From the NCBI GenBank assembly GCA_005792225.1, contig SXSP01000187.1, positions 1 to 17,251 on the forward strand: a DNA stretch of 17,251 nt, read 5' to 3'. Each line of letters begins with the position of its first letter. Within the stretch, counting starts at the first letter, position 1. Positions 5,729 to 8,907 of this stretch are shown in pieces. A program made the translations under genes and the position numbers. The stretch is from Bdellovibrionales bacterium. Its GTDB lineage: Bacteria; Bdellovibrionota; Bdellovibrionia; Bdellovibrionales; JAMPXM01. Below the pieces are notes generated by a model that was not told where the DNA came from, searched no databases, and saw only the letters and a program-made list of their open reading frames with translations.

Positions 5729-6710
5729 TGTGAAAGTGGTCCTCGAAGAATTCGGGTTCCATTTTTTCGATTTGCTCGAGCGGAAACCAACGCGCATCCG
5801 CCGCATCATCGTTTGCTTCGATCTTCGCCGTCGAATCACCTGGTAGCTCAAAGAGATGCGCGTGGGTGATCGTGCGCCCCCGACTCGAACGTAGCGGATG
5901 ATCAAAGGTGCGCGCATGGCTGAAAGCACGACGTAAAGACGCGTCGGGAACTTCGATCTTCGTTTCTTCTCGCAGCTCCCGAAGTGAGCAATCGAAAATC
6001 AATTCACGTGGATCAAGAAAGCCCCCCGGGATGGCCCAAAGGTCTTTGCCCGGTGCCTTCTTCCGTTTGATTAAGATCATCCGCCCTGCTTGGATCACGA
6101 GAGCATCCGTCGTGACGAAGACTGGTTCAAAGGGGCTCTCCGACCACGCATCCTTATATTTATCGATCGCGCGTTGTTCCTCGACGAGCCGCTGATACTC
6201 AGGCGTCGTAGCAAAGCGCGTAAGAAATTTCTTCGTCGCCTCTGCGAGATTGAGATCCGAATTGACCGAAGAGGCATCCCTAAAAAAGTTTTCGCGAATG
6301 GACTTCTGGCTCACGTTCGAAAATCCTTCGACCTTCTTGAAATCCCAGTTCGTAAACCACTTTTCGTCAGCGAGATTGTAGTGAGTGAATCGCCGCGCGT
6401 TCGGGGCGATACTTGTCACGGAATCGATCACGCTCTTGATCCAGACCGCTTCATCGTCGAACCGGTCGGGAACTTCAATGAACAAGACGCGCGACCGATG
6501 TTGTGGATCAAGATTCGCGTCGATGAAATCGCGTCGCTCACTTGCAATCCAAGGGTTGCGCAGGCTACGAGCCGACCTTGCAGATCCGATGATCACCACC
6601 ACGCCATCGTTCGCCGCCAGTGCGGTCTCAACAAGTTTTCGGTGTCCCTCGTGAAAAGGCTGAAATCGACCGACAACCACTCCAACGGTTGAAAAGCTTA
6701 AATTCATCAT
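5688..6710 (-). CDS. nadM: Bifunctional nicotinamide-nucleotide adenylyltransferase / Nudix hydrolase
   Basis: The protein has 340 residues and two domains. The N-terminal half (about 1-170) is an NMN adenylyltransferase, joining NMN and ATP to NAD+. It shows GRFQPFHEGH (14-23), the RNPW-x3-ER segment (51-59) and VSQKSIRENFF (133-143), equivalent to the C-terminal ISxxxIR motif. The second half (about 195-340) is a Nudix hydrolase with the box from Gly230 (GFLDPRE) to Ile252 (RELREETKI). The glycine near the end of the box is Lys251 here, while the metal-binding RE-x2-EE residues are present. Fusions of this kind are known, for example in Synechocystis and Francisella, where the Nudix part acts on ADP-ribose. 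It is the last gene of the pncB operon and overlaps the upstream fragment by four bases (ATGA). Confidence 0.94.
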   Translation of the reverse strand: MMNLSFSTVGVVVGRFQPFHEGHRKLVETALAANDGVVVIIGSARSARSLRNPWIASERRDFIDANLDPQHRSRVLFIEVPDRFDDEAVWIKSVIDSVTSIAPNARRFTHYNLADEKWFTNWDFKKVEGFSNVSQKSIRENFFRDASSVNSDLNLAEATKKFLTRFATTPEYQRLVEEQRAIDKYKDAWSESPFEPVFVTTDALVIQAGRMILIKRKKAPGKDLWAIPGGFLDPRELIFDCSLRELREETKIEVPDASLRRAFSHARTFDHPLRSSRGRTITHAHLFELPGDSTAKIEANDDAADARWFPLEQIEKMEPEFFEDHFHIIRSFLLAASTRR

Positions 6711-7033
6711 CCCTGAAGTCCTCTCTGACGGCTGCGAATTTCACCGACCATTTTATTTTTTAGCTCAAAGAGATTCGTCTCTAAGCCGACCGGGTAGGAG
6801 TGAGGATTCAAAAAACGCTGAATCGTCGGATGCAAGTAACTGATGTCCTCAGCGCGACGCCGACGGCTGGATTCGACATGGGTGTCTCGCCGAATCACGG
6901 CACCATTTCTCACGACGGGTTTCAAGAGATCCTCGAATGTGGACGAGGGTGAGAAGACTTTTCTCCGCGTGGCATCCGAAGGATCCACAATCTCAAAGGA
7001 ATCACTCGGGGAGTGATTCAAATCAAAAATCAT
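6707..7033 (-). CDS. C-terminal fragment of nicotinate phosphoribosyltransferase, in frame with pncB after an internal TAA
   Basis: This open frame of 108 codons looks like a separate small gene, but its sequence belongs to the C-terminus of nicotinate phosphoribosyltransferase. The end, PTIQRFLNPHSYPVGLETNL followed by FELKNKMVGEIR, is the family's usual C-terminal motif (NPHxYPVGL...L). It lies in the same frame as the pncB frame that ends at 7061. The nine codons between the TAA and this ATG read RADGFFSGD, which joins smoothly to MIFDL. The ATG at 7033 is therefore an ordinary internal methionine of the ancestral gene. No clear ribosome site precedes it, so independent translation is doubtful. 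The 3' end overlaps nadM by four bases. Confidence 0.85.
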   Translation of the reverse strand: MIFDLNHSPSDSFEIVDPSDATRRKVFSPSSTFEDLLKPVVRNGAVIRRDTHVESSRRRRAEDISYLHPTIQRFLNPHSYPVGLETNLFELKNKMVGEIRSRQRGLQG

Positions 7034-7060
7034 ATCGCCGGAGAAAAACCCGTCGGCGCG

Positions 7061-8230
7061 TTACCTGCGGACCTGATGAAGCCCGGGAGTCGTGATCTTC
7101 GCGAGCTGCTCCGAAAGCTTCATCCGATATTTCCAATCGGAGTCGCCGTCTTTGACCGCAACAAGTTTAAAGACTCCACCGAGCGCCGGCTGATCCGAGG
7201 CAGTCACGAGTTTGGTTCCGATTCCCCAGATGTCGATTCTCGCACCTTGCATCTTCAAGTTCTGGATCAAGGTTTCATCCAGGTCATTGCTCGCGACGAT
7301 CTTTGCCTCGGGCAGACCCGCGGAATCTAGAATCTGCCTCGCCTCGCAACTTAAGTAAGCGAGGTCGCCTGAATCAAGACGAATGCCGAGCATCTGGTGG
7401 CCCTGGCTCTTCAGCCACCGACCGGCTTCCGCGGCATTCCGAACTCCTTCGAGAGTATCGTAAGTGTCGACGAGAAAAACCGAGTTGTTCGGCATGGCGT
7501 CCGCGAACGCCAGAAAGGCTTCTCGCTCGTCATCAAATGCCATCACCCAACTATGAGCGTGCGTTCCCCGAACGGGAATTCCGTGAAGCTTGCCCGCCAA
7601 GATGTTCGATGTCGCATCGGCTCCACCCACGTACGCCGCGCGCGACGCGGAAATTCCTCCATCGACACCTTGAGCGCGACGTAAACCAAATTCGAGAACG
7701 TCATCGCGACCTGCCGCGAATTTTACTCGCGCAGCCTTGGTCGCAATGAGAGTTTCAAAATTAATCAGATTGAGGAGGGGAGTTTCGAGAAGCTGACATT
7801 GCCAAACGGGACCCTGCACGCGCAACAGAGGCTCACCCGCGAAGACGACCCGTCCCTCTTCAACGGCATCGATATCGACCTCAAGCCGCGTCTCTTGTAA
7901 GAAGCGAAGGAAGGCCGGGTCAAAGAGCGGCTTTCCATCGCGCCCCTTCAAACTTTCAAGGTAGGCGCAATCAGAGTCGCTGAACCCGTAAGACTCGATG
8001 AGATCGAGCGCGGAGTTGAGGCCGCAGTGAATCGCATATCCGCCGCCAAACGGGTTCGCACGAAAGTAAAGATCGAAAACTCCCACCTTCCGTCGCGGGC
8101 CTTGGGCAGTTCCTGACTTCCATCCCGCGTACGCCATCGTGAGTTGGTAGAGGTCGGTGAGCATGGAGAGATTTTCTTTGTAGATCGATCCCATGGGTTC
8201 ATCTATCTCAGCAGAGTCATCGAGGTCCAC
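7061..8230 (-). CDS. pncB: Nicotinate phosphoribosyltransferase, interrupted by an in-frame stop
   Basis: The frame codes for 389 residues with family landmarks: MLTDLYQLTMAYA (23-35), FRANPFGGGYAIHCGL (56-71), the catalytic-site GTHAHSW (222-228), RLDSGD (284-289) and IWGIGTKLVTASDQPAL (334-350). It then stops after KLSEQLAKITTPGLHQVRR. Family members continue here, usually with an aromatic residue, for about another hundred residues; the rest is found in the same frame at 6707-7060. Joined, the protein would be about 507 residues. The enzyme makes nicotinate mononucleotide from nicotinate and PRPP in the Preiss-Handler salvage route. The frame opens with GTG at 8230; an ATG at 8194 is an equally plausible start, and neither has a strong ribosome site. 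It is the first gene of the operon and is controlled from a palindrome-rich gap shared with the DUF2239 gene. Confidence 0.9.
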   Translation of the reverse strand: MDLDDSAEIDEPMGSIYKENLSMLTDLYQLTMAYAGWKSGTAQGPRRKVGVFDLYFRANPFGGGYAIHCGLNSALDLIESYGFSDSDCAYLESLKGRDGKPLFDPAFLRFLQETRLEVDIDAVEEGRVVFAGEPLLRVQGPVWQCQLLETPLLNLINFETLIATKAARVKFAAGRDDVLEFGLRRAQGVDGGISASRAAYVGGADATSNILAGKLHGIPVRGTHAHSWVMAFDDEREAFLAFADAMPNNSVFLVDTYDTLEGVRNAAEAGRWLKSQGHQMLGIRLDSGDLAYLSCEARQILDSAGLPEAKIVASNDLDETLIQNLKMQGARIDIWGIGTKLVTASDQPALGGVFKLVAVKDGDSDWKYRMKLSEQLAKITTPGLHQVRR

Positions 8231-8262
8231 GGAAAATCAGGTAGTTACCAGGAGTCCATGGG

Positions 8263-8280
8263 ATATTACCCGGGTGATAT
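8263..8280. promoter_or_regulatory. 18-bp palindrome, copy 1 (candidate operator of NAD-salvage operon/DUF2239)
   Basis: ATATTACCC-GGGTGATAT is a palindrome with one mismatched pair. It has the same core as copy 2, with centres 28 bases apart. Its last base is the first base of the -35 element of the DUF2239 promoter. On the minus strand it contains TAATAT (8268-8263), a possible -10 for pncB, although the matching -35 is poor. Confidence 0.75.
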
Positions 8281-8308
8281 TGACGGCGGAATAATACCCG
8301 GGTAATAT
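8280..8308 (+). promoter_or_regulatory. Sigma-70-type promoter of the DUF2239 gene
   Basis: TTGACG (8280-8285) and TAATAT (8303-8308) are separated by exactly 17 bases, a good match to TTGACA-N17-TATAAT. Transcription would begin near 8315, leaving a leader of about 14 bases with the ribosome site GGGAGG (8318-8323) five bases before the ATG. Palindrome copy 2 fills the spacer and -10 box, so a bound protein would exclude RNA polymerase. Confidence 0.7.
8291..8308. promoter_or_regulatory. 18-bp palindrome, copy 2 (candidate operator of NAD-salvage operon/DUF2239)
   Basis: ATAATACCC-GGGTAATAT is a palindrome with one mismatched pair. Together with copy 1 it defines the consensus ATATTACCCGGGTAATAT. 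Its right end coincides with the -10 box of the DUF2239 promoter. Two near-identical palindromes in a 99-bp divergent gap are unlikely by chance and point to a specific regulator. Confidence 0.75.
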
Positions 8309-8328
8309 AGGGAAGAAGGGAGGCCATA

Positions 8329-8907
8329 ATGCTCACCTACACGGCCTTTGAAGGATTTAAGCGACTCTCGCGCGGAGATATCGAAACCGTCGCCCTCGAC
8401 GTCGCCAAACACCTGAAGAAGAATTCATCAGCGAGTGTTCTCATCTTCAGCGACTCCTCAGGAAAACAAATGGACCTCGACCTGAGTGGAAGTGAACGCG
8501 ACATCATCGGTCGCCTTAAAGTTTTTGCGACACCTGAGGCGTCAACAGCCTCCGGCCCTGGTCGACCCAAACTGGGAGTCGTGTCGCGCGAAGTTTCGCT
8601 TCTTCCTCAACACTGGGAGTGGCTCGCGACCCAAACCGGTGGTGCTTCGGCGACGATTCGACGTCTCGTTGACGAGAAAATGAAAGCACCGCTGAACGAA
8701 AAAGACCGCGCGAAGCAAGCACAAGAGTCGGCGTACCGTTTTCTCACCGCCATCGCCGGAAACTTACCGAACTTCGAAGAAGCGATTCGCTACATGTATC
8801 GCCGAGACAAGAAGAAATTCAAAACGCTCGTCGCCGAGTGGCCATCGGATTTGCTGGATCACACGATGATACTGACCGAGGCCGTTTTTTCGCAGGAATC
8901 CAAATGA
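8329..8907 (+). CDS. DUF2239 family protein, possible ribbon-helix-helix regulator
   Basis: The protein has 192 residues and the DUF2239 pattern: YTAFEGFKRLSRGDIETVAL, a segment VLIFSDSSGKQMDLDLSGS, then GRPKLGVVSREVSLLPQHWE followed by WLATQTGGASATIRRLVDEK and a helical C-terminus. No function is established for the family to my knowledge. The stretch 87-119 reads like a ribbon-helix-helix unit: strand REVSLLP, helix QHWEWLATQ, a GG turn, and second helix ASATIRRLVDEKMK. The preceding GRPKLG adds a basic arm. A Shine-Dalgarno GGGAGG lies five bases before the ATG. The gene has its own promoter overlapping twin palindromes that also lie upstream of the NAD-salvage operon. This supports a role as autoregulated repressor, but that is inference. 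It ends eight bases from the convergent kinase gene. Confidence 0.85.
   Translation: MLTYTAFEGFKRLSRGDIETVALDVAKHLKKNSSASVLIFSDSSGKQMDLDLSGSERDIIGRLKVFATPEASTASGPGRPKLGVVSREVSLLPQHWEWLATQTGGASATIRRLVDEKMKAPLNEKDRAKQAQESAYRFLTAIAGNLPNFEEAIRYMYRRDKKKFKTLVAEWPSDLLDHTMILTEAVFSQESK

Follow-up and report, generated by a model that had tools for sequence, protein, structure and literature searches.

Two 18-bp palindromes lie between a pncB-like gene and a DUF2239 gene that point away from each other in the window, by which we mean the whole 17,251-nt stretch of Bdellovibrionales DNA that was analysed. This arrangement raises the question of which protein binds the palindromes and which of the two units it controls. 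The original prediction was that an undescribed regulator, most simply the DUF2239 protein, controls both. From the comparison of related genomes and plasmids we consider it likely that DUF2239 is a sequence-specific DNA-binding autorepressor whose operator is formed by the twin palindromes. By the same comparison, the twin site goes with DUF2239 rather than with NAD salvage.

The twin palindromes and the promoter of the DUF2239 gene

The features of the locus are the following:

6707..8230, minus strand: divergent pncB-like gene (NAPRTase), judged to lie outside the general system
8263..8280, no strand: putative operator copy 1, ATATTACCCGGGTGATAT; its final base is base 1 of the -35 box
8280..8285, plus strand: -35 box TTGACG of the DUF2239 promoter
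8291..8308, no strand: putative operator copy 2, ATAATACCCGGGTAATAT; within it lie the -10 box and the greater part of the spacer
8303..8308, plus strand: -10 box TAATAT of the DUF2239 promoter, the right end of copy 2
8329..8907, plus strand: DUF2239 gene (PF09998, 192 aa), the proposed autoregulator
8560..8682, plus strand: most conserved part of DUF2239, residues 78-118, the proposed DNA-binding segment

Both palindromes have, as had been read from the window beforehand, one mismatched pair each and centres 28 bp apart, and each copy differs from ATATTACCCGGGTAATAT by one mismatch. The chance expectation for a match with at most three mismatches within the window is 0.00 (200 shuffles). In the window's assembly (64% complete, 546 contigs) such matches occur at 8263-8280 and 8291-8308 only, and a looser IUPAC pattern with one mismatch allowed added one further place. 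The proposed promoter TTGACG-N17-TAATAT (8280-8308, plus strand), which both copies overlap, was confirmed as the sole sigma-70-type match between 8100 and 9000, with a score of 9/12 and a shuffle mean of 0.4 matches. This good promoter is one-directional and reads into DUF2239. Copy 1 had also been said to carry TAATAT towards pncB; this hexamer is present on the minus strand, but the hexamer 17 bp before it, read by hand, is TTCCGC, a poor -35 box.

Distribution of the twin site

Of 368 genomes from the window's phylum 56 contain DUF2239, as do 24 of 72,556 plasmid records. We compiled 53 loci from Bdellovibrionota, the window included (G004, G105 and G230, which hold fragments, were left out of the 56 genomes), and 15 loci from the 24 plasmid matches, which span Deinococcota, Pseudomonadota and Bacillota; L028 and L029, which contain L104 and L106 and so repeat them, were removed. 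A locus was counted as carrying the twin if two copies lay at most 1,600 bp upstream of the gene and 24-32 bp apart with summed mismatches of at most 11, a threshold chosen post hoc with the data already seen. The search of relatives for the motif that the original prediction called for found the twin upstream of DUF2239 in 48/53 Bdellovibrionota and 13/15 plasmid loci (61/68 together). None of 1,360 first-order Markov resamplings (20 per locus) and none of 67 regions downstream of the gene passed the same test. The best shuffle sum was 12 mismatches, whereas 57/68 real loci had sums of 9 or less; both copies had at most 6 mismatches in 57/68 loci. A copy with at most one mismatch was found in 29/53 Bdellovibrionota and 3/15 plasmid loci. 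A conserved dyad that lies on the gene's own promoter and co-occurs with the gene, as is expected of an autoregulator, is thus present in both sets.

The spacing of the 61 twins was 28 bp in 42 cases, 27 bp in 13, 29 bp in three, 26 bp in two and 25 bp in one. The prevailing 27-29 bp (58/61) correspond to promoter spacers of 16-18 bp, since each copy carries one promoter hexamer. All 42 twins spaced by 28 bp have the TTG of the -35 box, followed by A in 36 and then by C in 36, and their central CCGG is conserved in 40-42 of the 42 at each position; nearly free are positions 2-6 after copy 2 (0.06-0.19 bits) and the middle of the linker (0.23-0.43 bits). As the DUF2239 relatives are 39-58% identical in protein sequence to that of the window and their gene neighbours vary, common ancestry of the flanking DNA does not account for the conserved site. 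A blind BLAST search with the 55-bp site against the 72,556 plasmids returned six records, the top four of which place the match just upstream of DUF2239 genes, namely Deinococcus gobiensis (E 2e-4), Cupriavidus sp. EM10 (E 1), Phyllobacterium sp. T1293 (E 6e-4) and Comamonas antarctica (E 4). The remaining two matches lie inside an ABC permease and a VgrG-like gene.

Failures in the two sets took several forms. No site is present in L109 (G240), and in L111 (G250) one site is fused to a fragment of the gene. The twin of L085 (G367), at 28 bp, is degenerate; in L126 (an Acinetobacter baumannii record) the two copies stand 19 bp apart rather than the usual 28, and L118 (Novosphingobium) retains a single good copy. 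Contig ends truncate L092 and L068, the latter starting with the right half of copy 2. L083 passed despite having one recognisable copy only. What is left of DUF2239 in L111 (G250:C26, around 33915) is its C-terminal 45 aa, to which a deletion has apparently joined the operator-like site. A further ten DUF2239 loci are on viral contigs (L127-L136, GC 0.65-0.71), and the conserved dyad was absent from all ten: none passed the twin test, their best sums of 13-20 resembled those of shuffles, and L136 alone had a copy with at most three mismatches. A search with one exact form of the site gave no match in viral contigs. Several of these loci have a single poor copy, centred on ACCCGGGT or TCCGGGT, close to the start of the gene. 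With all sets pooled, the twin accompanies 61/78 DUF2239 loci. Given the ten viral loci and the other failures, the twin occurs widely, though not at every DUF2239 gene.

Relatives without DUF2239 provide the counterpart. We scanned 71 of 73 such genomes, G005 (57% complete) and G012 (76%) being left out, and found a copy with at most one mismatch in 0/71 and a twin in none. Some place with at most three mismatches occurred in 31/71, at two mismatches in one of them. Many other three-mismatch places exist in the genomes, and a control pattern read backwards yields such matches too. Three kinds of candidate were discarded: ATTTTTCCCGGGTTATAT is found repeatedly in genus g19 whether or not DUF2239 is present, an apparent double twin in G110 is one site in overlapping contig ends, and additional places in G225 (two mismatches) and G098 (three mismatches) each fall within a reading frame.

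These distributions bear on the strongest alternative, according to which another, widely conserved regulator binds the palindromes and DUF2239 is a target of it rather than the binder. DUF2239 has no recognised DNA-binding domain, some sites precede other genes at a distance from DUF2239, and the ten viral DUF2239 genes lack the twin as if a separate binder were missing there. However, none of the 71 related genomes without DUF2239 has a copy with at most one mismatch, and the site stands beside DUF2239 in four phyla, whether on a chromosome or on a plasmid, and next to unlike neighbours. We therefore regard this alternative as unlikely. Because the site accompanies DUF2239 in four phyla and close copies are missing from relatives that lack the gene, DUF2239 would be the best candidate for the undescribed regulator of the site. 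This part of the original prediction is supported, whereas control of the NAD unit by that regulator is not.

NAD salvage and other candidate targets

Control of an NAD-salvage unit was suggested by the neighbours of the site. The pncB-like gene has NAPRTase N- and C-terminal domains in two frames' worth of open reading frame; it is broken by an in-frame TAA (7061-7063, minus strand), which the relatives L235 and L236 do not have at that place and which is either a mutation or an assembly error. Its probable start is the ATG at 8194 (or the GTG at 8230). The neighbours in the window also include an NMNAT-like and Nudix protein, which matches NMNAT-like and Nudix models only. Known regulators of NAD genes, NrtR, NadQ, NiaR and NadR, are expected near NAD-salvage genes. 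In contrast, the DUF2239 site does not follow pncB or nadM. No relative of either gene was detected by tblastn near DUF2239 in any of 54 other loci (52 distinct), in flanks of at most 4 kb upstream and 2.5 kb downstream, less at contig ends and with plasmid loci left out. Of the 56 DUF2239-bearing genomes 36 were searched for a pncB relative, which was found in three, the window's own among them; the other two pncB relatives are on contigs other than that of DUF2239, and their best match to the site has 7 mismatches. An operator upstream of pncB or nadM in relatives, as would be typical of an NrtR-like system, was accordingly not found.

The reading that the site is an NAD-salvage operator through which pncB-nadM and DUF2239 are controlled jointly draws on the divergent gap, in which 68 bp separate the beginning of copy 1 from the probable pncB start, and on the TAATAT towards pncB. 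It is nevertheless very improbable in view of the 0/54 loci, the two pncB relatives without a site, the poor reverse -35 box and the premature stop in the window's pncB. Joint control, as first proposed, is not borne out: the neighbourhood does not recur and the good promoter reads only into DUF2239. Judging from these genomes, the motif is retained where pncB is not, and the association with NAD salvage is probably a local coincidence, although the site may have a local effect on pncB in the window's lineage. A role for the palindromes as a structure in RNA or DNA, such as an attenuator or a mobile repeat, with no dedicated protein, would suit their near-perfect dyads but is scarcely credible, given that the assembly holds just two copies, that their spacing is tied to the promoter hexamers, that they lie at or before the expected transcription start and that no Rfam family exceeds its gathering score between 7900 and 8700. 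The sole match in the search for a riboswitch or other RNA, to a snoRNA family (20 bits versus a gathering score of 60), was taken as chance.

Genes that share the site with DUF2239 are of other kinds. In 14 loci an MFS gene is followed by DUF2239, and the site lies before the MFS gene, about 1.3-1.4 kb upstream of DUF2239. The nearest NCBIfam model for one such MFS protein is the myxochelin exporter MxcK, with 266.8 bits against a cut-off of 525. In G046 a lone DUF2239 gene has its own twin, and the MFS orthologue is unlinked, about 0.83 Mb away. This orthologue is 60-79% identical to the operon-borne MFS proteins and has a copy with one mismatch some 20 bp ahead of its start, plus a copy with four mismatches 35 bp further out. 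In L199 (3904-4410) a glyoxalase/bleomycin-resistance-like gene is divergent from the unlinked MFS gene, with the operator in their common gap. The genome of the window contains an MFS relative (42% identical; L252, G000:C541) that starts 44 bp into its contig, where the upstream DNA is truncated.

Related methyltransferase genes follow DUF2239 in six loci, and the one protein scanned belongs to the LCM family. G111 has a second LCM-family methyltransferase gene, preceded by a single site on TTGACA-N17-TAATAT; this gene is broken across two frames by mutation or assembly error. G067 contains a second twin, roughly 80 bp ahead of where a SnoaL-like gene probably starts. A MATE exporter follows DUF2239 in one plasmid record. 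On the plasmids L119, L122 and L123 (Eleftheria, Paenibacillus and Rhizobium) DUF1330 is directly downstream of DUF2239 and is a possible target. Among the matches listed, most genomes have no strong site besides the local one. Three genomes (G046, G111 and G067), one of them with a broken target, suggest that there is perhaps a regulon beyond the operon of DUF2239 itself. As a theme common to neighbours and targets we infer the export and modification of small molecules.

The DUF2239 protein and its possible mode of action

The product of the gene clearly belongs to its family, matching PF09998 with 219.3 bits (cut-off 25, E 4.6e-65) over profile positions 1-181 of 182. Conservation has its maximum at residues 78-113, and the segment 78-118 comprises a GRP arm, a possible short strand and two helices (93-100 and 106-118). 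An AlphaFold model from 13 sequences (mean pLDDT 82) has both helices after a low-confidence stretch; a model from the single sequence was poor (pLDDT 51) and was not used. Pfam, NCBIfam, PHROGs, PDB-sequence and fold searches recognised no DNA-binding domain. By eye, the GRP arm, a stretch ending in LP, the two helices and the motif S..(I/L)R.L(V/I) in the second helix resemble RHH_1 (PF01402), although the first helix is, also by eye, about one turn shorter than in the compared RHH segments. Profile searches gave no RHH match, neither with the whole protein (E up to 0.01) nor with seven isolated segments (E up to 10). The hhalign comparison with ribbon-helix-helix segments was weak, with a probability of 2.3% over 10 columns in helix B. 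Fold matches of the monomer model, in which the two helices are present and the strand region has low confidence, included no RHH chain. To regard the segment as a ribbon-helix-helix with a GRP arm, or as a helix-turn-helix, would be a guess from by-eye resemblance that the searches support in neither case. A profile match of the conserved segment in G021 (E 8e-4) was taken as chance, as the protein looks by eye like a membrane protein. Literature searches, with most subscription journals outside their coverage, returned no match for DUF2239, COG3644 or PF09998 and, with forms of the motif, no title on this subject.

In the proposed autorepression by DUF2239, each copy, a dyad (ATATTACCC/GGGTAATAT), would be bound by one dimeric unit. 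With the end of copy 1 on the -35 box and the -10 box inside copy 2, the bound protein would exclude RNA polymerase. A signal that frees the DUF2239 protein would then allow expression of DUF2239 and, in some genomes, of an exporter or modifying enzyme with the same site. Repression through blocking of the polymerase is the most straightforward interpretation; the position of copy 2 on the -10 box makes activation less likely. DUF2239 would probably be a DNA-binding switch for itself and sometimes for an exporter, and perhaps the autorepressor of a small efflux or detoxification regulon. The sequence comparison itself shows the site, where it lies on the promoter, that it accompanies DUF2239 across phyla, and a few unlinked copies; from these we infer DUF2239 as the binder, repression, a signal and a detoxification-like role.

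Local autorepressors of efflux genes of the TetR and MarR type have a dyad operator on the promoter of the regulator and sometimes of a neighbouring exporter, and their regulons are small. The proposed DUF2239 system would share these traits. However, DUF2239 matches no TetR or MarR model, and its operator is paired and similar across phyla. Tentatively, and with more doubt than confidence, DUF2239 could found a new family of DNA-binding switches, a self-contained repressor-operator module of at least four phyla and of plasmids with a little-changed twin operator, which would sense a small toxic or signalling compound and control how this compound is exported and chemically modified; in the window's lineage, where the module lies beside NAD salvage, it may couple both. 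A protein family without known function thereby gains a cheap and concrete test, namely the DUF2239 protein on twin-site DNA. If the protein binds, a regulator family, its operator and some of its targets could be named across many genomes at once, and the search for the signal could begin from the exporter, methyltransferase and SnoaL-like genes that bear the site.
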